Below are positions 26,845 through 43,438 of a stretch of 64,000 bases of DNA, in pieces (the stretch's first letter is position 1; every line of letters starts with the position of its first letter). The notes under the pieces are model-generated. The model was not told the origin of the DNA. It did no database searches and saw only the letters and a list, made by a program, of their open reading frames with translations. The stretch comes from an uncultured Flavobacteriaceae bacterium (lineage in GTDB: Bacteria > Bacteroidota > Bacteroidia > Flavobacteriales > Flavobacteriaceae). The DNA lies in the NCBI GenBank assembly GCA_947494825.1, contig CANLWN010000001.1, forward strand, positions 496,001 through 560,000, in the 5' to 3' direction. Both the position numbers and the translations under genes were made by a program.

Positions 26845-26885
26845 TTGATCTGTTAATCACAATTAGGTCCAGCGATTCAATTGGA

Positions 26886-27019
26886 GCTAACGGTTGGTAT
26901 TAAAGCAGTAGTGGTTCAACAGCACTATACTTTCAAACCACTACTAAGATACTGAATTGCTAAAGTGTTTCCAGAACCAATTCACCATTATTGCTTTTAT
27001 ACACTATTGTGAAATGTAG
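26886..27019 (-). repeat. attC-like element I
   Basis: Read in gene direction, the element begins after the DUF1330-like gene (CACAATAGTGTATAAAAGCA) and ends TAATACCAACCGTTAGCT. Inside it AGTAGTGGTT/AACCACTACT (26907-26916/26936-26945) forms a 10-bp stem with a 19-nt loop. The end GTTAGCT matches six of seven positions of the attC R' consensus GTTRRRY. It shares its ends with element J. Confidence 0.45.
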
Positions 27020-27024
27020 AGACA

Positions 27025-27762
27025 TTACTGAATAGCTTCTCCAAGAATAAAGATCAGCTTGCTCAGTGATTCATCTCGTTTGGGAAATAATTTCAGCATC
27101 CGTTCATCGGTAACCATTTGTTGCATACCTTCTTTTGAATCGAAATAAAAACGATGGATCTCACTGGGTTGTGCCAGTTCTCCTTTCGTTTCAATAGGGA
27201 AGAGGAATCTTTCAAAGTGGGTGCCAAATTCAGGAATTATAGCACATGCTTCATCGTGATATTCAGCAAACTGGTCTTCGTACTTTTTACCCGCTTTAAA
27301 ATAGACCAAAGCCACACCATACGTTTTGCTGTTGTCCCCTATTTCCCGTGTAAATTCAAAGGCTGTTTTCTTAGTGACAAAACCATACATTTTTTCTACG
27401 GACGGAGCTACGACCTCTGCTTTAAGTGCTAGAAATTCTGGGTCTTTGTTAAACGCTTCCAATGCTTCCATGTTTGGATATACGGCAAAATGGATTTCAT
27501 CAGGAAGTTCCAGATCTCCTTGAGCTACTATTGTAGGTTTTATTACCCTTTCAATCCGGGCTGCATATTTTTCTAGCAATACATTGCCCCTTGATCTTAG
27601 TTTTTCAAATTTATTTTCTTGTCCATCTTTCAGATAGAATAGTGCCACGTTAATTATTTCTTGATTATTCATCTTTTGCTTTGTATTGGATTCTACTTTT
27701 TCTTCATTTGTTGAACATGAGGTTAGCAGTGCTACCATTACACCCATTACCAATGATTTCAT
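27025..27762 (-). CDS. Lipoprotein with two tandem DUF1330/ABM-like domains
   Basis: The 245-residue protein starts with a lipoprotein signal (VMGVMVALLTSCSTNEE, Cys about 17). Two similar halves follow, each a dimeric alpha+beta barrel unit with EIINVALFYLKDGQE and ELPDEIHFAVYPNMEAL in the first, and VALVYFKAGKKYEDQF and AQPSEIHRFYFDSKEG in the second. The start at 27762 was chosen for the signal. It is encoded 5 bases after the SRPBCC gene, in the AraC-linked operon. A fused pseudo-dimer of this fold is of interest; substrate unknown. Confidence 0.82.
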   Translation of the reverse strand: MKSLVMGVMVALLTSCSTNEEKVESNTKQKMNNQEIINVALFYLKDGQENKFEKLRSRGNVLLEKYAARIERVIKPTIVAQGDLELPDEIHFAVYPNMEALEAFNKDPEFLALKAEVVAPSVEKMYGFVTKKTAFEFTREIGDNSKTYGVALVYFKAGKKYEDQFAEYHDEACAIIPEFGTHFERFLFPIETKGELAQPSEIHRFYFDSKEGMQQMVTDERMLKLFPKRDESLSKLIFILGEAIQ

Positions 27763-27767
27763 GGTTA

Positions 27768-28193
27768 TTATAGATTTTGATTGATATATGTTTCCATTTC
27801 CTGTAAGCCCGTGTTCCAAAGGTTTTTGAATGCTTCTTTTGCTATTTCACCGTTTTCGGGTGTCGCTTTAAAGGAAGCAGACCAATCCACGATGCTCTTT
27901 CCATTACCGTCATTTCGAACGGTCATTGTTTCTACGATATCTTCAACGGGTAACATGGTTTGTTGCGGGATGGCAAAACGAAAGGTTTTGGTTTCATGGT
28001 TTACCTCCAAAATGTCCTCAACCAGATCGGTACCATCTATTGTTTGACAAAAACGTTTACCATTTGCTACGCTACAAGTTTTAATTAGCGAACTAAACCA
28101 TCTGTCCACTCCTCCAATTGCACCGATTACTTCCCATGCTTTATCAGGGGTAACATCTAAATTTTTTGAGATTTTTTCTTCGATTGTCTTCAT
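27768..28193 (-). CDS. SRPBCC-family ligand-binding protein
   Basis: The 141-residue protein begins KTIEEKISKNLDVTPDKAWE and has VDRWFSSLIKTCSVANGKRF, LPVEDIVETMTVRNDGNGKS and a C-terminal helix NLWNTGLQEMETYINQ. This is the polyketide cyclase/dehydrase-type SRPBCC fold. The AraC regulator is 62 bases upstream, and the lipoprotein with tandem DUF1330-like domains is 5 bases downstream, all on the minus strand. Confidence 0.86.
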   Translation of the reverse strand: MKTIEEKISKNLDVTPDKAWEVIGAIGGVDRWFSSLIKTCSVANGKRFCQTIDGTDLVEDILEVNHETKTFRFAIPQQTMLPVEDIVETMTVRNDGNGKSIVDWSASFKATPENGEIAKEAFKNLWNTGLQEMETYINQNL

Positions 28194-28255
28194 GATTTTT
28201 AAGTTTTAATGATGAAGACAAATGTGCTAAACTTAGAAAATAGTTATTTGCACAG

Positions 28256-29116
28256 CTAGTTCAATGATTTGCCAAAATGGTTCAGCTTGTAGATTGTTGG
28301 GGGAAGACCCTTTTTTTGTTTGAAGATTCTTGAAAAATGAGCTACACTCGAAAAACCGCACTCGTAAGCTATTTCAGTTGCTCTCAAGTCGGTTTTAGCC
28401 AATAATTCAAGTGCCATTTCAATTTTTTTATTGCGAAAGTAGGTAGCTGGTGATTGTCCGTATGCTTTTTGGAATTCACGCTTAAATGTAGAGCGGCTCA
28501 TTGCTGCAAGACTCGCCAATTTTGCAATGGTAACTGATGAATATACGTGCGCATCAACAATATCCCTCAGTGTATAGGAGTTGGGCTGAAAAAGGTTGGA
28601 CAATATTGTTTTAATCTCAGGCGCATTTTTCGTTTTACTGAGCAATAATATAATTTCTTTCAGCTTCAAAACCAGAATTTCTTCGTCAACAACCTCTGGG
28701 TTTTCAAAATAAAATAACAAGGAATCAATGTATTTGGCAATGAGTTGATCTTGATGGAGCTTAGCCATACCAATTACTCCTGCAGCATCCTGCTTTTTAA
28801 GAAACTCAGGTAATTTATTTTCATAGATTTTCAATAACACCTCAGGAAAAAAATGCACCGCCACGGCTTGGTATTTATTAGTATCTGGAGTTGGAACCAT
28901 GTCCGACCAATAATTTCCACATTTCATCAATACCGCCTCTTTGGCATTAATCCTAAGCTGTTCATTTTCTGAGGTAGAATCATAGGTACCCTCCATTACA
29001 TAAAGAAAACAGGCTTCATCAGGCATGGGATTCGGTTTTTTAAATGGGGGCTTGAGAACAATTGTTTCAAATAACAGCTTCCCAAATAGGTCCATTCTTT
29101 TGTGCTCGAGTATCAT
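28256..29116 (-). CDS. AraC-family transcriptional regulator, paralogue 1
   Basis: The 286-residue protein has an N-terminal cupin-like domain with EACFLYVMEGTYDS and AKEAVLMKCGNYW. A helical linker with IDSLLFYFENPEVVDEEILVLKLKEIILLL is followed by an AraC HTH pair (about 190-282; IAKLASLAAMSRSTFKREF and IAYECGFSSVAHFSRIF). It is clearly related over its whole length to the regulator at 52701-53543. The next genes downstream on the same strand are the SRPBCC and tandem-DUF1330 genes, its likely targets. Confidence 0.9.
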   Translation of the reverse strand: MILEHKRMDLFGKLLFETIVLKPPFKKPNPMPDEACFLYVMEGTYDSTSENEQLRINAKEAVLMKCGNYWSDMVPTPDTNKYQAVAVHFFPEVLLKIYENKLPEFLKKQDAAGVIGMAKLHQDQLIAKYIDSLLFYFENPEVVDEEILVLKLKEIILLLSKTKNAPEIKTILSNLFQPNSYTLRDIVDAHVYSSVTIAKLASLAAMSRSTFKREFQKAYGQSPATYFRNKKIEMALELLAKTDLRATEIAYECGFSSVAHFSRIFKQKKGLPPTIYKLNHFGKSLN

Positions 29117-29276
29117 TCTTTATATTTCACAACAATTGGCTAAAGGACATATATCCTTTATCTGTACTGTATCAATAGCTCCAATATAATGTAAAATATC
29201 TGTTTAAAATTCTTCCCCCGTTGATTCAGGAATCCATGTCGGACCAGTAAAGGATATTAACCATGTATTACGGCAG

Positions 29277-30617
29277 TTAAACAGTAGACCAAGCCACCTT
29301 GCCATCCTGATCGTACCAGGTTTCCGTAAGCTCCCCATCCTTTATCTCCAGGATGGCAAAGCCGTTTTTGACCCGTAGTTCGTTACGGGGCACAGGCTTT
29401 TCCAGGGGCGTGTTGGCGTAATAGTCCACATGAGGCGCATTTACCAACCATTGTGCATGGCCAAAGGGTATGCCGCCATGCCCCAGGCATCGGGCCTTTG
29501 TGGCACCGCTTGGCGCAGAATCGGAATAGACCACCGCGTTGTGGATATGCCCCCAGTACCAGACCTCCGGACGTTTTCCGTTTAAGGAATGGGTCACCAC
29601 ATCAGTCCACAAGGTATTGGTCTGTCTTCCCTGTACGTCCATGGGGTTGTGATGGGTAAGTACGATCACCTTCTTGCCTTTGGCCTGCCTGGCGATAAAT
29701 CCGTCCGGACCGGGCTGATAGGGATCATTGATGGCCCCGTCCATATACATGCCGGTAGCGTTGTAGGCGGAGTCCAATCCCAATACCACCCAATCGCCAT
29801 AAGCGATGGAAAAATAGGTAGTACCCTGCTGCTTTTCAAAAATTGGGGAGGCAAGGGCGGTATGGTACAGGCCCTTGGCCCCATCGTACATCTCGTGATT
29901 GGAATTCAGGGTAAAGTTCCCCAAGGCAGCGGACTCCCAGCAATCCAATAAATTCCATTGCTCCTCATAGCCAAGGCCCGCGTAATACACATCGCCCAGA
30001 TGGATCATAATATCCGGTTTGGCCTTGGCCATCTGCTGCATGACCAGTTGTGAGGGACTGTGGGGTAGATTCCCGTCCTTGTACTTTCCCGTGCCCCAAT
30101 CGCCGAACAAGGCTATTTTTAATGATTTCTGGGTATCCGGATCTATGTTCAAGGTAGCCGGATTGTGCGCCAAAGGCCGAGGCGGATTTATATTTAACGC
30201 TACCAGAAGATAGCCGATCAGCGCCAAGGACCATCCTGGATCCATTACGGCGCAGGTAGCTGTGGAGACCAGCGAGCCATCACCGAGCAGCACCCCTTTC
30301 CCTTGCCAGATCTCCCACCAACGGGACCATTCCTTGTCATTGATATCTGATGTGGGCATCCCGGCTTTCCTCAGTTTTTCGCGGAGCGATTCGGAAATGA
30401 GATCGCTGTTGTTGAGGAAGTACAGGGCCCAGCCAAATTCAATATCCCCTTTGGCATCCGGACCCGGTGGCGTGGGGGTATTCATCAGCTGAATGAGCTG
30501 GTCTTCTGAGGCCTTGAGCATGCTCCAAATATGGAGCTCTATTTGTGCTCCGCTTTGCAGGGCATCGTACACTAGTTGTTGCTTCTCCTGAAGCGCTTGT
30601 TGGAATGGCTGTGACAT
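29277..30617 (-). CDS. Calcineurin-like metallophosphoesterase
   Basis: The 446-residue protein has a unique helical N-terminal region of about 160 residues. A complete metallophosphoesterase domain follows: GDWG (172-175), HLGDVYYAG (about 207-214), NSNHEM (238-243, in place of the usual GNHE), LTHHNP (His metal ligand) and GHIHN. There is no signal peptide; a hydrophobic stretch near 128-142 may be buried. Such enzymes hydrolyse phosphomonoesters or diesters with two metals. The variant GNHE motif keeps the His but shifts Gly to Ser. Substrate unknown. Confidence 0.88.
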   Translation of the reverse strand: MSQPFQQALQEKQQLVYDALQSGAQIELHIWSMLKASEDQLIQLMNTPTPPGPDAKGDIEFGWALYFLNNSDLISESLREKLRKAGMPTSDINDKEWSRWWEIWQGKGVLLGDGSLVSTATCAVMDPGWSLALIGYLLVALNINPPRPLAHNPATLNIDPDTQKSLKIALFGDWGTGKYKDGNLPHSPSQLVMQQMAKAKPDIMIHLGDVYYAGLGYEEQWNLLDCWESAALGNFTLNSNHEMYDGAKGLYHTALASPIFEKQQGTTYFSIAYGDWVVLGLDSAYNATGMYMDGAINDPYQPGPDGFIARQAKGKKVIVLTHHNPMDVQGRQTNTLWTDVVTHSLNGKRPEVWYWGHIHNAVVYSDSAPSGATKARCLGHGGIPFGHAQWLVNAPHVDYYANTPLEKPVPRNELRVKNGFAILEIKDGELTETWYDQDGKVAWSTV

Positions 30618-30757
30618 TTGAATTTAGGTTTTAGGTGTAAAGATGTTGTTCCACAATTGGAATGGTGGGGGAAGTACCTAAATATACGGATAAATATGAA
30701 GAAATATGTATTTTCTTACAAATAATAAGGGCAAGGATACTGTTGCGTCGTTATTCT

Positions 30758-30818
30758 GTTAAACGTTGGTATTAAAGAACCGGACTCCTGCTTTTATAAA
30801 GGGTTTTGTTGTGCTCGG
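30758..30818 (-). repeat. attC-like element J
   Basis: In gene direction it follows the ankyrin gene: GAGCACAACAAAACCC at the start and TAATACCAACGTTTAAC at the end. GCACAAC and GTTTAAC each match six of seven positions of the attC R consensus pair (RYYYAAC and GTTRRRY). The element is about 60 bases, in the attC size range, and shares its end sequence with element I. Confidence 0.5.
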
Positions 30819-30830
30819 TATTTTAATTTT

Positions 30831-36646: not shown

Positions 36647-36699
36647 GGTTTTAGTTTTTAAAGTTGATCCTTAATTAGCCCATAAGGTATAAAATAATG

Positions 36700-36790
36700 T
36701 TCGTTCCATGATTGAGAGAATGTGCCCTAAGGGTCACTGTTGTCCATCAGTTTTTAATTGCGTATACCCTATTGTCGGCAGGTTTTTTCT
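36700..36790 (-). repeat. attC-like element K (weak)
   Basis: In gene direction it follows the serine hydrolase gene: CCTGCCGACAATAGGGTATA at the start, like element D, then GTGACCCTTAGGGCAC, an almost perfect palindrome (36722-36737). A clear 3' end motif is missing, so this is the weakest member of the family. Confidence 0.3.
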
Positions 36791-36859
36791 TTTTTAATGA
36801 CTTAATTGCTACCTGATCGTGATATTGAAAAGACTGGAAAAAGGATTTTTCTATGCGGA

Positions 36860-38869
36860 TCACTTGCTACCCTCAACCAAAAAATTCTTTAGATCGAATA
36901 GCAGTGGGCCAGCAGTATTGGCGTTTGTAAATACGATATACCCTGTTCTTAAATCATCATACATCTCAAACATACAACGAAAATCCCCATTATTTCCCCC
37001 GTGTCCAAATACCAATCCAAAAGGAGAGTCGCGTAATGCAACGCCTAGCCCGTATCCAGACTTATAACCATTCATCCAGTTCTCTTGGCCTTCCAAAGTA
37101 TGGAAACGAAACATTTTTTCGGCCTGTTCTTCTGTCAATCCTTCTCGATTTAACAATGCGAGAGCAAAGGGTATAAAATCCTTTGCCTCTGTATGCATAC
37201 TAAATGCCATACCAGGGCCATCGGGACAATCAAACATATTCGGAATTCCATCAAAGTGACCGGCTACTTTAAGGTTTGGGAGTTTGTCGTTGCACATAAA
37301 ATAGGTGTTGGTCATCCCTAGAGGCTTTAGGACTTCTTTTTCCAGATGGGATTGAATGATTTGTGGCCATTCATCAGAGCTACCTCCTGTAAGTACCCTT
37401 TTTAGGTATTCAAAACCTTCACCGGAATATCCATAAGTAGTTCCCGGTTTGTTGATTATTCTGGTTCCCCAGTTCGGCAGCCCGCTCACATGTGTCAGTA
37501 CATGTCTACCAGTCATTAGCTGGTATTCAGGATATTCTTCCAATTCAGGAAATGCTAAGGTTTCATATAATGGTTTGTCAAGGTCAAATTCCGTACGCTG
37601 AACCAGGAGATTCATCAGGTAGGCAAATATCAATTTGGTAATGGAAGCTGCTTCAAAAACGGCCTCATCCCTAAGCGGTTTTTTAGATATATTGTTCTCT
37701 ACGCCATAACTACGGTGATACACCAGGGCACCTTCCTTGACTATGGCAAGCGATACGGCAGGGATATTATAATGTTCTCTGTACGCGTCCACAAATTGAT
37801 CTAATTGTTTAATGGATGTAGAATTAAATGGTGAGTGCAGTATCCCCTTCCCAGGAATCAGTTTTGGTTTGGGAACTACGGCGACCTTAATAGGATCAAC
37901 TGTTAGTTCTTGGTTTTTGGATACTGTAATATCGGAAACTGGACCGCTATGCTTTACTAAATCGATATCAAACCATTTGTTCATTTGCCAACTGGGGGGT
38001 ATGGTCATTGCATAGGAGCCAGCGGGTAACTTTAAGTCATACTGACCCAATGAATCGACGCTCACATCAAAAAATATGTCAGGTCTTTCCATATTACTAA
38101 ACTTAACCGTTCCTGGCCATTGGTCTCCGGCTTCGCCTTCCCATTTCAATGCTCCCTGTACCATACCGCTAGCATCATTGGCTTCCGACAGTACCAGATC
38201 ACCAATCAAATTAGAGTTCATGAACTTATTTCCTTCAGTTGGGCCCCAAGTGATCATGACATGTTCTTCATCTGTGTCTTTATCAAAGACTGCATAGTCG
38301 AACCCGATTACTCTACCGGCGCTTAACGTACCTGAGACCTGAATTTTCCATTCGTACGTAATTAGATTATTTTTCTTTGCGATAGCCAATTGAACTTGTT
38401 CAAAGCTGGCATTTTTAACCTGCGGATAAAAGTGAAGCCCTTCCTGTTCCACTATTTTTCGGTGGTGTTCGTCTATTTCATAGGCAATTACTCCTGACCC
38501 TTCAGGGCTATGTCTCGGGTCAAGATACAAGACTTGAAAATCATGGCTAACGAAGTGGCTATTGTCGGGCGTTTTTACGTAATCATTGTCCACCATGGTT
38601 ACTGCAATGTACAAATGACCCGATTGCGCATGGTAACCTCCCCGCCAGAATGCCAAAGCATCCTCCGGCCCCTCGATGCCGTTTCCATAATGGATATGTT
38701 GCATCGCGTTGCGATGAATTCCTAGCGGCCAATCATCGAGATTACCGTCTATGGTTATATTTGAAATTGGGTAAATATAGGCGATCGAGCCATTGTTGGC
38801 GTTCAATGAATTGCTCGATAACAACATCCATAAGATCGAATAGAAAGGTAGGTATTTCGTTGTCATCAT
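36860..38869 (-). CDS. Exported serine hydrolase with N-terminal CBM9-like domain
   Basis: The 669-residue protein has a signal peptide (about 1-24) and a CBM9/DOMON-like domain over about 28-230 (ISNITIDGNLDDWPLG at its start). A linker with a carboxypeptidase-type repeat leads to a beta-lactamase/penicillin-binding-protein fold (about 350-660). The catalytic S-x-x-K is ASITKL near residue 410, a YSGEGFEYL stretch holds the Tyr, and HGGNNGDFRC lies near the C terminus in place of the KTG triad. It could be an esterase or D-peptidase. It is the largest and last gene of the cassette-like run and may lie outside it. Confidence 0.86.
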   Translation of the reverse strand: MMTTKYLPFYSILWMLLSSNSLNANNGSIAYIYPISNITIDGNLDDWPLGIHRNAMQHIHYGNGIEGPEDALAFWRGGYHAQSGHLYIAVTMVDNDYVKTPDNSHFVSHDFQVLYLDPRHSPEGSGVIAYEIDEHHRKIVEQEGLHFYPQVKNASFEQVQLAIAKKNNLITYEWKIQVSGTLSAGRVIGFDYAVFDKDTDEEHVMITWGPTEGNKFMNSNLIGDLVLSEANDASGMVQGALKWEGEAGDQWPGTVKFSNMERPDIFFDVSVDSLGQYDLKLPAGSYAMTIPPSWQMNKWFDIDLVKHSGPVSDITVSKNQELTVDPIKVAVVPKPKLIPGKGILHSPFNSTSIKQLDQFVDAYREHYNIPAVSLAIVKEGALVYHRSYGVENNISKKPLRDEAVFEAASITKLIFAYLMNLLVQRTEFDLDKPLYETLAFPELEEYPEYQLMTGRHVLTHVSGLPNWGTRIINKPGTTYGYSGEGFEYLKRVLTGGSSDEWPQIIQSHLEKEVLKPLGMTNTYFMCNDKLPNLKVAGHFDGIPNMFDCPDGPGMAFSMHTEAKDFIPFALALLNREGLTEEQAEKMFRFHTLEGQENWMNGYKSGYGLGVALRDSPFGLVFGHGGNNGDFRCMFEMYDDLRTGYIVFTNANTAGPLLFDLKNFLVEGSK

Positions 38870-38943
38870 TTTTAAAGCGTTTAGGTTACGCTTTAAAGAT
38901 TCGATTGCTAAAGGATTGTTACACTCTCTCTAGTTTGGTGCTT

Positions 38944-39030
38944 GCCGCTAATGGTTTTTATATGGTTTGTTAGGTGAAAATCGGCTACATAGGCTAGAAC
39001 TAGCAATAAATTAAATAGGGTGTTGTGCTA
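38944..39030 (-). repeat. attC-like element H
   Basis: In gene direction the element begins TAGCACAACACCCTATTT directly after the lipoprotein stop and ends AAACCATTAGCGGCAAGC. GCACAAC matches six of seven positions of RYYYAAC; the end ATTAGCG is a weak match. Confidence 0.4.
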
Positions 39031-39032
39031 TA

Positions 39033-39476
39033 TTATTGCGTAGATGCCAATTCAACACTATGTTGGGCATATCCACTTCCCCTATCATTTTCAGCATTGG
39101 CACTGATGACCCCATTCCCTGAGTAGTCAGAATTGAATTTAATTGTGGCAATTGACTTTGCGATCAGCCCATCGACGGTATTTTCCACATCTATGATTTC
39201 CATACTGCCAGATTCTACGGTCCATAAAAATTGAGCATTGGAAGGAGTGTCATTTTTGGAATAAAAGGTTGATACAAATTTTATAACTTCATCTGGTAAG
39301 GCAAAATCAGCTCCATCTACACATATCGAGATTAAAAGATTTGGTTCAATTGCTATTTCACAATCAGTTACATTGTTTAAATTTTCAGGAGTAACATCAG
39401 TATCGTCATCATTTGAACAAGAGATTGTAAAAGTGACCAATGTGAATAACAATAAATAAATTGTTTGCTTTTTCAT
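39033..39476 (-). CDS. Small lipoprotein, PKD-like or unknown
   Basis: The 147-residue protein starts with a lipoprotein signal (LLLFTLVTFTISCSNDDD, Cys at 20, followed by an acidic export-type stretch typical of Bacteroidota surface lipoproteins). The mature part has a strand pattern with AQFLWTVESGSMEIID and GVISANAENDRGSGY, reminiscent of an immunoglobulin-like or PKD domain. It is a single-gene unit flanked by attC-like elements H and G. Confidence 0.72.
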   Translation of the reverse strand: MKKQTIYLLLFTLVTFTISCSNDDDTDVTPENLNNVTDCEIAIEPNLLISICVDGADFALPDEVIKFVSTFYSKNDTPSNAQFLWTVESGSMEIIDVENTVDGLIAKSIATIKFNSDYSGNGVISANAENDRGSGYAQHSVELASTQ

Positions 39477-39587
39477 GTTACTTTCATTTTTTAATTAAAA
39501 TACTGTCTTTATAGTCTTTACAACTTAAAATGGTTACTTCTAAATTTATTTTGTGATCAAATAGTTGTCTTTCGTTTTAGTACTATT

Positions 39588-39753
39588 GCTAACGGTCTAG
39601 GCTATGATTTGTTGTGGCCTTGGAACTCCGTAGGATTTTCAGCCGCAGACTACACTTGGTAAAGATACATAGATTTTCTGACAGAAAAATACTCAGTGAA
39701 TTCCGTTTTGACTTCATTTGAAACCTAAACTTGATTTCCGCCATTGTTGTACT
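39588..39753 (-). repeat. attC-like element G, without gene
   Basis: In gene direction it runs from GTACAACAATGGCGG to ATAGCCTAGACCGTTAGCAA. GTACAAC matches RYYYAAC at six positions. The 130 bases between the two ends hold no recognisable gene; a 67-codon frame on the minus strand has no protein features. It may be an empty or decayed cassette. Confidence 0.42.
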
Positions 39754-39843
39754 TATCGAAAAAGCTCGAATATATGTCCAACGTGGTATCATTTCCTTTT
39801 ATTTCTGTCCTCCAAACCCGATTTGATTCTCATTTTAAAATGC

Positions 39844-39914
39844 GTTACAACAGTCTCGGTTACGGTTACGTCACGCCCCTGGGGTGATGAAATATAGCCA
39901 TTGCTGTGTGTAGT
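39844..39914 (-). repeat. attC-like element B
   Basis: In gene direction it follows the alpha/alpha-toroid gene closely: AACTACACACAGCAATGGCT, a small hairpin TCATCACCCCAGGGGCGTGA, and the end CCGAGACTGTTGTAACG. It resembles element C in the order GGCTATA, TTCATCAC, GCGTGACG, GAGAC-GTTGT. Confidence 0.5.
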
Positions 39915-39920
39915 TTTTAT

Positions 39921-40817
39921 TTACTTTTCGATCTTATAATGATTTTTCAGCGTTTTCAACGTCCATAAGGTCTGTATGCCAGCCCATTCCAATTTCATTC
40001 CTTCACTAAGTCCATACCAAGTGTGCCATCCGCCATCGCTCTTTTGACGATTGATCAACTCATTTAGGTCGGCACTGATCATTTCTTTGGTAAATATTGG
40101 ATATAAGATACTCTCAGGTGAAGGTGCATAACTCAGACTATGCGGTTTTTCATACAGTCCCCAGCCCTCATCCGATTTATCCTTGCAGAGTACGCCGTCG
40201 GCCAATATCCATTTCTTTAGATCGTTGAGCGCTTTTCCCGCCTTATCCTTGCTTTTGGTGTACTGCAAAAACTGTAATCGCCTTGGCACACACAGATGGC
40301 AAAAAACGTGCTTTTCTTTAATTCGTTCAATTTCTCCCCACACAAACTGCTCTGCTTTTTGCATCCACGGAATCTCAATCCTGTATTTCTCCAGCATTCC
40401 CAACAAAGGGGCAGTGGTGCTCAAAGCAGCCCATTCTTTAACGCTTTTAAAATGCGCTTCACAAGGATAATCGTTTTTGGGACGTAACATCCATGGGATA
40501 CCACCTTTATCAGTGGTTATGCTTTCAAAATAAGGCATAAAATCATCTAAAATGATGTCTTTTGTGAGATAGCCAACTTCGTCCAATGTTTCAAGCGCCA
40601 TGATGCTAAAAAGCGGTTGACTTTCCGGGGATGCGGTATCTGGTTCCATCCCATGCCCAAAACCGCCATCAGAATTTCGGTAGGCATAAACAGCATGAAA
40701 AACCCCTTCCGGACCATCATTTTCGAAATGAAATTGAAACAAACGCCTTTCTATCATTCTGGCATTGGTAAATATAAAGTCCCTCGCTTTGATATAATTC
40801 TTCTTTGATAGTTTCAT
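39921..40817 (-). CDS. Terpenoid-cyclase-like (alpha/alpha toroid) protein, copy B
   Basis: The 298-residue cytoplasmic protein has the alpha/alpha-toroid pattern seen in prenyltransferase and squalene-cyclase superfamily members: GVFHAVYAYRNSDGGFGHGM, DKGGIPWML, DEGWGLYEKP and KSDGGWHTWYGL. These are four repeat cores with Gly-Gly turns and aromatic residues. A catalytic DxDD motif is absent. It is distantly like the protein at 18177-19133. It is a single-gene unit between attC-like elements E and B. Confidence 0.72.
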   Translation of the reverse strand: MKLSKKNYIKARDFIFTNARMIERRLFQFHFENDGPEGVFHAVYAYRNSDGGFGHGMEPDTASPESQPLFSIMALETLDEVGYLTKDIILDDFMPYFESITTDKGGIPWMLRPKNDYPCEAHFKSVKEWAALSTTAPLLGMLEKYRIEIPWMQKAEQFVWGEIERIKEKHVFCHLCVPRRLQFLQYTKSKDKAGKALNDLKKWILADGVLCKDKSDEGWGLYEKPHSLSYAPSPESILYPIFTKEMISADLNELINRQKSDGGWHTWYGLSEGMKLEWAGIQTLWTLKTLKNHYKIEK

Positions 40818-40845
40818 GCTGTATTTATGGGTGGTTCAAAATTAC

Positions 40846-40905
40846 ACACAACGGTCTCGTTTAACCGTCAGTTTTTAAATGCCATTATACATTGTTGCGG
40901 GTAGT
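40846..40905 (-). repeat. attC-like element E
   Basis: In gene direction it begins ACTACCCGCAACAATGTATA after the small lipoprotein gene and ends AACGAGACCGTTGTGTGT. GTTGTGT matches six of seven positions of GTTRRRY. Its length (about 60 bases) is in the attC range. Confidence 0.48.
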
Positions 40906-40915
40906 TTTTAAATTT

Positions 40916-41346
40916 TCACATTCCAACAGTTTCATAGATATAACAAATTCCTGTTTTCGGATTTCTCAAATATCTCGAACGCTCAAATTCATTCGCTTGG
41001 TCTTTGGCGTAAATCAGATAATTTTGGTCAGGTTTAAACCATTTCGGCAATTCAGTCCAACTCAACCAATCATTTCCGATAGTGTCAATTTCAAGTCCAT
41101 TATATTCAACAAATTCATTAAACCATTTTTTGTCCGATTTAAACTTTAGAAATAATTCATATTCGAGCGAAAAATGAGGTGATTGATAATATTCGCCTTT
41201 AATCAATTCAATTTCTTTTGGCACTTCGCTTCCAGACCAGTATTTATAGGCTTTTTCCGCATTTTTTGTTTCAATCGGCAGACAGCTTACCAGAAGAAAA
41301 ATAAATCCGAATAACGTTATTTTTTTATCAAGTTCGTTTTTTTCAA
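40916..41346 (-). pseudogene. Small lipoprotein gene with start lost in a poly-A run
   Basis: The frame ending at 40916 is open far upstream but contains no ATG, GTG or TTG before the signal peptide. Read back, it gives ITLFGFIFLLVSCLPIETKN, an excellent lipoprotein signal, then AEKAYKYWSGSEVPKEIELI and about 95 more residues. One extra A in the 7-A run at 41320-41326 (minus strand) would join this frame to TTG AAA AAA ACG at 41346-41335, i.e. LKKTNLIKK before the hydrophobic stretch. So either a frameshift or a sequencing slip removed the start. A GTG at 41224 is an internal alternative but would lack the signal. Flanked by attC-like elements E and C. Confidence 0.6.
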
Positions 41347-41350
41347 ATTT

Positions 41351-41440
41351 TGCACGACGGTCCCGACCATGATTTCGTCACGCCATAAGCGTGATGAACC
41401 CGCCTGCCGGCAGACAGGTTATAGCCAATGTTAGCAGTAG
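41351..41440 (-). repeat. attC-like element C
   Basis: It starts at the stop codon of the YwqK-like gene: TAACTACTGCTAACATTGGC in gene direction, then a CTGCCGGCAG palindrome (41404-41413), a TCACGC/GCGTGA stem (41378-41383/41389-41394, 5-nt loop), and the end TGGTCGGGACCGTCGTGC. It runs directly into the leader of the next gene. The stem sequence recurs in element B. Confidence 0.55.
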
Positions 41441-42040
41441 TTATTTTTTTTCAGCTTTGACAGCTTCTCCATTTTCGTAATAAAGATATCCATCAATTTT
41501 CCCACTTATACTATCGTACATTACCCAACGTCCGTCCTCTTTACCATTAATAAAGGTGCCTTCGGATTGTAATTTTCCGTTTCCAAAGTAGCTAAAGACA
41601 GAGTCTTGCAACATATTGTTTTTCCAGTTCTCTAAATTTTTCGGTTTGCCATTAGGGTAATAAGATTTCCAAATTCCTTCTTTGGACTCATTCGACACTT
41701 GTCCCTCCTCGGCAAGTTGTCCATTTTCATAATAATATTTTACCGTTCCATTAGCTATTCCATTATTCCACTCAACCTCTTCCTCCACTTGACCATTAGG
41801 AAAGAAATATTTCATTTTTCCATTGATAAGTCCATCTTTAAATTCAGAATATGATTGGATAACACCATTCTCATAGCTCTCGCATATTCCTGTATATGGC
41901 TTATCATTTAATGACCATGTCCCATTGTTATTTTGGAATAAGTCGTTACAGTCAACCACGCCTTCGTTAGGTACAACCTTCTTTTCTTGTTTGCAAGAAA
42001 TAAATAACATCAAAGTAAAAAATAGGAACATTTTTCTCAT
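41441..42040 (-). CDS. YwqK/MORN-repeat lipoprotein
   Basis: The 199-residue protein has a lipoprotein signal (FFTLMLFISCKQEK, Cys at 16) and six or seven YwqK/MORN-type repeats of about 22 residues: ICESYENGVIQSYSEFKDGL, NGKMKYFFPNGQVEEEVEWN, NGTVKYYYENGQLAEEGQV and GIWKSYYPNGKPKNLENWKN. Proteins of this kind are annotated as YwqK antitoxins in some genomes, but no toxin gene is adjacent here, so only the repeat structure is claimed. It is a single-gene unit between attC-like elements C and F. Confidence 0.85.
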   Translation of the reverse strand: MRKMFLFFTLMLFISCKQEKKVVPNEGVVDCNDLFQNNNGTWSLNDKPYTGICESYENGVIQSYSEFKDGLINGKMKYFFPNGQVEEEVEWNNGIANGTVKYYYENGQLAEEGQVSNESKEGIWKSYYPNGKPKNLENWKNNMLQDSVFSYFGNGKLQSEGTFINGKEDGRWVMYDSISGKIDGYLYYENGEAVKAEKK

Positions 42041-42046
42041 AATTAT

Positions 42047-42183
42047 TGCTAAGGTGTTTGTGTATGATCAGTTGCGATTCTTGCGCAGCTAATTTACCAA
42101 ATGGAAATCGAACCTTAGTAAAATCCTGTGGATTTTCCGAATAAGAACAGGCCAATCAATTATTTTCATTTATTGTTAAGTAA
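42047..42183 (-). repeat. attC-like element F
   Basis: In gene direction it begins GGTTACTTAACAATAAATGA and ends CACAAACACCTTAGCAATAA. ACTTAAC is a full match to RYYYAAC; CTTAGCA is only a partial match to GTTRRRY. At about 135 bases it is at the long end of attC sizes. Confidence 0.42.
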
Positions 42184-42185
42184 CC

Positions 42186-43067
42186 TTATTTTGTTTTAAT
42201 TGGAATCGACAATTCAATATTTGTTCCAACGGCTTTTTTGTCCGCTGTTTTTGTCGGAATAAATTTCGGCAACGACTCAATAATTTTTTGGATGGTTTTT
42301 CTTGTTTGATTTCCACCAGAAATTGAATTCAAACTTTTTACATTAGAAATATCTCCAGTTTTTGCAATGCTTACTCTGTATTTTAAAATTCCATCTTCTT
42401 TTGGTGGTTTAATATTTGTTGCTTTCAATTTATCAATTACGTATGAATGTATCGATTTCAGAGTACATTCCGTAATTTTTGATTTATCCGATTCATTCTC
42501 ACAACCCACAAATGATAAAGGTTGGACAAGTGATTCAGCCTCTTCTTTATTTGGTAGACAAATACCCTTAATTCCTTTGTTACCTGTAATTGCTACAAGT
42601 CCTAGTCCTTTTTTATAATAACGTGTTTCTTTTGCTCCGTTTGAGTATTTGTTTTCAACAACTAAAAGGTTTTCATAGTTACAGTATGGGGTTTCAAAAC
42701 TGCCCTCTATTTGGTCAATTTTCCCAGTCTCCCATTTAATTCCTTTTTCCGGTATTGCAATAAGTAAAATGTTGTCTTTTTTCTTTACCTCATCGTACAT
42801 ATAAATGGTATCGTTTTGATTTCTCAGCAACAAATCATAAACAGTTCCATTTCCAAAATCCTGCACATACATATAATATTCTTTACCATAAATTTCCTTC
42901 TTTTCCGTTACTTTCTCAACATAAAAAGCATTTCCCCAAGTAATGTTTTTTTTAAATCCGATTTCCAGAGGAAAATAACTTTCTCCAAAACTTTTGTCAC
43001 AAAAGTCACTTTGTCCGAAAGTTAAAATTGGGAAAATTGCCAATAATAAAAATGTTGTTCTTTTCAT
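42186..43067 (-). CDS. Exported protein with TonB-C-like C-terminal domain
   Basis: The 293-residue protein has a signal peptide (FLLLAIFPILTFGQSD). A domain of unknown family with FPLEIGFKKNITWGNAFYVE occupies about 20-190. A C-terminal part (about 205-290) resembles TonB_C: DGILKYRVSIAKTGDISNVK, TRKTIQKIIESLPKFIPTKT and VGTNIELSIPI. There is no N-terminal membrane anchor, so it is not a normal TonB. It is a single-gene unit between attC-like elements F and D. Confidence 0.78.
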   Translation of the reverse strand: MKRTTFLLLAIFPILTFGQSDFCDKSFGESYFPLEIGFKKNITWGNAFYVEKVTEKKEIYGKEYYMYVQDFGNGTVYDLLLRNQNDTIYMYDEVKKKDNILLIAIPEKGIKWETGKIDQIEGSFETPYCNYENLLVVENKYSNGAKETRYYKKGLGLVAITGNKGIKGICLPNKEEAESLVQPLSFVGCENESDKSKITECTLKSIHSYVIDKLKATNIKPPKEDGILKYRVSIAKTGDISNVKSLNSISGGNQTRKTIQKIIESLPKFIPTKTADKKAVGTNIELSIPIKTK

Positions 43068-43438
43068 TCGTTGATTTGGTTTTTAAAGTTGTCTAACGGG
43101 CTTCGTGCATGGCTTCGCGGGGTGGCCATCATCGCGCCCCATGCGTTATACATGTTGTTGTAGGCAGAAACTTTTGTTGTTTGCCCAAAGTAAATATAGT
43201 AAAACTTGGTATGGGCATGGGTATGATTATTTACATATATGGACGGTCCCAAAAAAAGCCGGTTTAAACGACTCTTAGGCATCAAAGACCGCACCCCCTC
43301 TCTTGCGCTAGGTAACTTAAGCGTAGAAGCGCTCTAAAACGCCTAAACTATTCTACCCGTTTATAAAGAAACGCGGAACCATCGCAAGAAACGGCACCAC
43401 CGGACAGGGCAGAGGACAAAGGCAAAACTACATTTTAC
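43068..43438. other. Gene-free stretch containing attC-like element D
   Basis: About 370 bases separate the TonB-C-like and DUF2911 genes. The right part (43170-43438) has no supportable gene on either strand. The left part is element D. Confidence 0.45.
43091..43167 (-). repeat. attC-like element D (best match)
   Basis: In gene direction it starts CTGCCTACAACAACATGTAT and ends CGAAGCCCGTTAGACAAC. GTTAGAC is a full match to the attC R' consensus GTTRRRY. The interior has the stem GCATGG/CCATGC (43107-43112/43139-43144) with further GC-rich pairing. It lies just upstream of the TonB-C-like gene, at the beginning of the six-gene run. Confidence 0.55.

Follow-up and report, generated by a model that had tools for sequence, protein, structure and literature searches.

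In chromosomal integrons such as the Vibrio superintegron, mostly one-gene, co-oriented cassettes are each followed by a folded site (attC) that ends at G|TT and whose R'' complements the preceding R'; attI lies beside the recombinase in a platform at one end of large arrays of unknown genes, and relatives occur on plasmids. Two or more attC sites within 4 kb and with no integrase nearby are classed as CALIN (cluster of attC sites lacking integron integrases). In an integron cassette, the bases preceding the hairpin complement the start of their own cassette, that is, the preceding element, and both ends are joined in the excised circle; for a static hairpin, pairing is expected inside the same element. 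The insert of the integrase IntI has been called essential for integron function (PMC8138268), and in Treponema intI is transcribed toward attI (PMC3607928). For the Bacteroidetes, the IntegronFinder 2.0 survey contains only In0 elements and one complete Salinibacter integron (PMC9024848), and no Bacteroidetes are represented among the taxon-specific attC models (PMC8352920). Here, a stretch of 64,000 nucleotides (the window), corresponding to positions 496001-560000 of contig C1 (CANLWN010000001.1) of a 4.54-Mb Flavobacteriaceae-like genome, was analyzed following a preliminary description of a candidate gene-cassette array in it. The hairpin elements at 36.8-43.2 kb of the window are very probably attC-type sites, and the genes between them cassettes, of an integron-like system widespread in the class Bacteroidia, as judged from sequence comparison.

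All of the features listed above for chromosomal integrons are shared by the Bacteroidia system. It differs from them in its recombinase: the IntI insert is lacking (58-59 residues, compared with 100), the protein is placed outside the IntI clade and has an additional domain at its N-terminus, and the gene points toward its own array. It also differs in the R box, which has about 14 nucleotides and a fixed mismatch, compared with 7 in chromosomal integrons. Recombinase and cassettes are co-oriented as in Treponema integrons, whereas the Treponema enzyme is a true IntI. As in CALINs, the window array and a second, larger one on contig C3 are site clusters in a genome without recombinase; the CALIN class rests on the IntegronFinder attC model, whereas the present sites were called by weight matrices. 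With XerA/XerCD (NF040815; PDB 5HXY, 4A8E) a catalytic core is shared that is about as close as that of IntI, the XerA cut-off being reached by two of four Bacteroidia recombinases and the others scoring slightly below; unlike these, the Bacteroidia system adds the N-terminal domain, a cassette array and attI. No description of a Bacteroidia cassette system was found in the open-access literature; subscription papers and preprints were outside this scope, and the term 'undescribed' is provisional.

Barcode complementarity and site anatomy

A search with the right-hand part of the element located the large array of the same genome, the matches being the window and a cluster at 635-680 kb of C3 (45 kb). 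This cluster is a row of some 45 small genes that, with few exceptions, share one strand, and the same elements occupy many of the gaps. The right-end motif is clustered in the genome: eleven of its 17 matches fall inside the two arrays, and a reversed control gave 2 matches. That the window elements exceed chance is made certain by the C3 array.

Barcodes, defined as seven variable bases, were compared in the C3 array and in five arrays of other genera. Between the bases after GTT of one element and those before AAC of the next, 664 of 861 positions were complementary, against 303 ± 15 after shuffling (z = 24), and 84 of 123 pairs matched at 6 or 7 of the 7 bases. Pairing of the two barcodes of the same element is absent from these six arrays (263/728 versus 254 expected). 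The offset complementarity was also seen in the C3 array taken alone. Since each element is complementary to the preceding one and not to itself, the signature is that of integron cassettes, and the cassette-array reading first proposed passes this decisive test. At the level of sequence, the unit structure and the barcodes are established.

Barcode pairing reaches base 14, with an almost invariant A.C mismatch at base 11. The L-box hexamers, which lie 6 nucleotides inside each core, are fully paired in 80% of 259 distinct hairpins from 52 genera; compensatory types are GGCTAT/ATAGCC, GTGTAT/ATACAC, GTATAT/ATATAC, GTATAA/TTATAC and GGCTAA/TTAGCC, and covariation is strong relative to shuffled partners (z = 20.8). 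With 3 nucleotides on one side and 6 on the other, the spacers differ in length and recall the unpaired spacer of attC. The attC fold, with paired R and L boxes around an unpaired spacer, is thus recognizable from L-box covariation and from barcode pairing of the R box. The usual core-to-core length is 124 nucleotides. Across arrays, GTT is conserved at 0.98-0.99 and the bases behind it vary, e.g. GTTGTGT and GTTACCC; the GTTRRRY end suggested at first does not hold as a rule.

Recombinase, attI and cassette mobility in relatives

Full-length or nearly full-length tyrosine recombinases (375-400 residues) were found in about 70 of 149 related genera and, where the context was readable, usually upstream of an array in the same orientation. 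In four arrays, the recombinase is at the 5′ edge on the same strand. Most of twenty further recombinase loci have downstream elements on the same strand, compared with few of twenty paralogue controls, some of which fell in the tree among related lineages. Several contigs carrying the recombinase loci of G070, G017, G005 and G008 (L136, L139, L138 and L135) stop 0.2-2 kb past the recombinase; draft assemblies therefore break at the arrays and conceal them.

Directly behind its stop codon, the recombinase gene has an attI-like site, which consists of a palindrome, for example ATAAACACACTAGTGTGTTTAT, with a GTT behind it; the barcode is situated 27-185 nucleotides past the stop in the relatives. 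No such site exists in the window's genome. The attI barcode equals that of the first cassette at 10 of 18 loci and at 42 of 59 named loci (7.4 expected), the 59 being those with enough sequence among 80 named loci from Winogradskyella, Aquimarina, Arenibacter, Seonamhaeicola, Xanthomarina, Polaribacter, Flavobacterium, Algoriphagus, Pontibacter, Rufibacter, Prolixibacteraceae and others. Matches to a strict pattern covering one hairpin part were obtained in 68 of the 149 genera, with one match for the reversed pattern. Co-occurrence of recombinase and element by genus (both 42, recombinase only 28, element only 26, neither 53; p = 0.001) is just moderate and uncorrected for kinship.

With the IntI model TIGR02249, the Bacteroidia recombinases score 186-213 bits (cut-off 265). 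The stretch from KGxxDR to HxLRH measures 58-59 residues in nearly all of them and in Xer proteins, compared with 100 in 12 IntI. A tree built from 84 proteins places all IntI in a single clade (100/100) and the Bacteroidia proteins outside it, the deeper forks being weak. The recombinases nearest to IntI (95/86), from the Flavobacteriales metagenome-assembled genomes L221 and L222, are likewise without the insert, and their attI barcodes match a cassette. The nearest solved structures are XerA and Vibrio IntI (2A3V), the latter aligned in two pieces around its insert. The suggestion that the elements could belong to a Bacteroidota family with another mechanism was correct in part: the recombinase beside the relatives' arrays is not a canonical IntI, and the cassette logic is retained.

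The additional domain at the N-terminus comprises about 100 residues, has a conserved (R/K)WS...CWxxP-like motif and, in AlphaFold models, takes an alpha-beta fold with fair confidence; no Pfam family matched it (L176:10013-10285 and homologues). XPB damage-recognition and SMARCAL1 HARP domains bind irregular DNA. The best structural matches of the N-terminal domain, to the XPB domain (Z 6.5) and to eIF1-like folds, and that to HARP of SMARCAL1 (Z 4.3) are too weak to count.

Movement of cassettes was followed through duplicates. Intra-genome copies of 100% identity have the gene and the 3′ hairpin in common and mostly different 5′ hairpins, identity ending at the following GTT (e.g. CACGTT|GTAGCAC versus CACGTT|AGCTTCA). 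In three cassette pairs shared between genera (>93% identical), the 3′ hairpins are 95-96% alike and the 5′ hairpins 28-66%. The precise ends of the units, their transfer between genera, attI and the recombinase neighbourhood can likewise be read from the sequences compared. A 123-nucleotide hairpin, 95-98% conserved, occurs at 16 places on plasmids of Persicobacter, a genus from another order, and also on those of Flagellimonas; it was unmatched in a phage collection. On Persicobacter psychrovividus plasmid pPP2 (L311, 285-334 kb), a hairpin array is 97.6% identical to those of Flavobacteriaceae; it obeys the cassette barcode rule (43/56). Flagellimonas marinaquae plasmid NZ_CP092416, which is mobilizable, bears a complete cassette with a dihydrofolate-reductase-family gene and matching barcodes (L312:7412-8123), flanked by two different hairpin types and having erm(F), a transposase of Tn3 and a tyrosine recombinase annotated xerA in its vicinity. 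It is possibly a mobile form of the Bacteroidia cassette system. Among 95 cassette proteins, few matched Pfam families (TPR, MORN, DMP19, FRG, CdiI-like, Tubby-like), and candidate anti-phage families were matched in a few (L020/L021, L086-L088: LmuA, PDC-S15 and, weakly, HamA).

Proposed mechanism and rival explanations

In the proposed system, a cassette consists of GTT and barcode, the gene, the reverse-complement barcode with AAC, and a hairpin. On circular excision, the start barcode would meet the complementary barcode in front of the hairpin, giving a complete folded single-strand site with an R box of about 10 bp + 3 bp and the fixed A.C mismatch at base 11, an unpaired spacer of 3/6 nucleotides and, further inward, the L box GGCTAT/ATAGCC and a variable loop. 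The Xer/IntI-type tyrosine recombinase of 375-400 residues, encoded upstream and co-directionally, would insert the cassette at attI or at another attC, attI being a palindrome (for example ATAAACNC..GNGTTTAT) with a GTT behind it, directly past the recombinase stop. We infer that this recombinase performs the reaction, that it is the bottom strand which folds and takes part in it, and that the cut is at G|TT. On balance, it seems likely that the Bacteroidia have an integron lineage of their own, with an Xer-like recombinase, an N-terminal extra domain and folded sites handled without the IntI insert; cassette capture would have arisen more than once, or the system would represent the ancestral state before IntI gained its insert.

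It is very unlikely that the elements represent ordinary integron cassettes acquired by horizontal transfer, the array being a canonical-integron CALIN that an IntI mobilizes in trans. Cassette logic and hairpin anatomy are the same and CALINs are common (PMC9024848, PMC9668308). True IntI also occurs in other classes of the phylum, the cut-off being exceeded in 84 of 296 genomes, one alone of which is listed in the same class, so the search works; yet it found no IntI in the family, for which the five best candidates of each of 397 genomes were scored and in which elements are present in 68 of 149 genera. In addition, a different recombinase with a matching attI stands at the array start, and the core is GTTRNNN with a 14-nucleotide R box, not GTTRRRY. 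A similarly small probability is assigned to gene units with 14-bp inverted ends that move core to core in a transposon-like way, the hairpins being separate, fixed landing sites. Several homologues in different genera do share the exact gene unit with both hairpins different, whereas the recent copies, both intra-genome and in the three inter-genus pairs, take the 3′ hairpin along.

REP/BIME repeats (repetitive extragenic palindromes and bacterial interspersed mosaic elements) of RAYT (REP-associated tyrosine transposases) are short palindromes beside a TnpA-REP gene and do not mobilize genes. That the elements are such dispersed hairpin repeats, or terminators, between genes that are not moved is scarcely probable at all: they are indeed numerous intergenic imperfect hairpins conserved across genera, but static repeats would pair internally, which the pairing of the variable bases with the previous element contradicts, the elements cluster in arrays beside a recombinase, and transfer between genera involves entire gene units with precise ends, a mobility that also speaks against RAYT repeats (no search aimed at TnpA-REP was made).

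Several observations weigh against the integron-like reading itself. In G068/G098, G014/G098, G063/G068, G109/L192 and G009/L199, the gene is alike from core to core and both hairpins differ; hairpins are also exchanged, and the simple model leaves this exchange unexplained. No full-length recombinase was matched in 26 of the 68 genera with the strict pattern; this pattern covers one hairpin type, and drafts break at the repeats. The window's own genome is without such a recombinase, and its window barcodes by themselves are just marginally significant.

The window array and its significance

The window elements were called with a two-part weight matrix (left core ending in AAC, right core starting with GTT) trained on the other array of the same genome. 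Because MAFFT aligned the short elements too poorly for a covariance model, the analysis relied on weight matrices and on direct tests of the barcodes. Five elements lie within 3.6 kb, all on the minus strand. Element A (43095-43165), with its left core at 43159 (score 12.6) and right core GTTAGAC at 43097 (below the matrix threshold and identified by eye), forms the upstream edge of the array. It is followed by B (41354-41436; left core 41432, score 21.3; right core 41358, 12.8), C (40848-40900; left 40896, 9.7; right 40852, 16.5), D (39847-39909; left 39905, 13.5; right 39851, 15.9) and E (39589-39752; left 39748, 9.3; right 39593, 24.6), the last having a long loop. No gene lies between D and E. 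A degenerate element, G, is situated at 42047-42178 on the same strand (right core CTTAGCAATAA, left core TTACTTAAC). On the gene strand, the element consensus reads CTACNNNCAACAATGGCTATAA...ATCATAGCCNNGACCGTTGNNNN, and the common frame of the five is CTAC NNN CAAC A ATGGCTATAA ... ATCATAGCC NN GACC GTT GNNNN. No Rfam family matched in the window, and simple fold energies did not separate the elements from other gaps.

Neighbouring barcodes agree at 7 of 7 bases between the right core at 40852 and the left core at 39905, and at 6 of 7 between the degenerate element (42053) and B (41432). The six window pairs together agree at 23 of 42 positions, against 15.3 after shuffling (p about 0.04), and are partly eroded. 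The window array is decaying. An element behind every gene, as initially described, is not present: the gaps at 38870-39032 and 36647-36859 are without a recognizable one, and that at 42041-42185 has the degenerate element only. Likewise, none of the further elements proposed at 26880-30820 was recovered by scoring.

The genes at 36.8-43.2 kb are on the minus strand and mostly without a known family in a Pfam scan; their description as small, unrelated and separated by imperfect inverted elements was accurate. Cassette gene 1 (42186-43067) encodes 293 residues without a Pfam family and gene 2 (41441-42040) a MORN_2 repeat protein of 199 residues. The region 40916-41346, taken for one gene, is not a single reading frame: the listed frame covers only 40916-41224 (gene 3, 102 residues from a GTG start), remains open upstream of the GTG without an ATG, and has an extension resembling a lipoprotein N-terminus. 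It is probably a decaying cassette gene. Gene 4 (39921-40817; 298 residues, no Pfam family) is flanked by the perfect barcode pair. A possible fifth cassette gene (39033-39476; 147 residues) has no recognizable element behind it and a barcode agreement of 0/7, and the gene at 36860-38869, encoding a CBM9-like and a beta-lactamase-fold (serine hydrolase) part, has no element behind it and is probably outside the array.

Neither IntI nor the Bacteroidia recombinase was found in the window's genome, for which the initial term 'array lacking its integrase' is appropriate; the window and C3 arrays are integrase-less arrays of the Bacteroidia system. XerC/XerD of this genome could act on them in principle; they are located elsewhere and nothing links them to the arrays. 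Only two genes are shared with the nearest genome, G018, around the window, and gain or loss of a single cassette could not be mapped at this locus. In G018, a broken recombinase (186 residues) adjoins an element (C5:91133-92419; L281), which is platform loss in progress.

Bacteroidota are considered to have almost no integrons, and the cassette system described here occurs in dozens of Flavobacteriaceae genera, in arrays of 40 or more genes. Barcodes provide a record of cassette ancestry, and cassettes are also plasmid-borne, one of them near erm(F). If the reading is true, the system would offer a natural test of which recombinase parts are required for folded single-stranded sites, and it would constitute a large unread gene pool that accounts for numerous small orphan genes in these bacteria.

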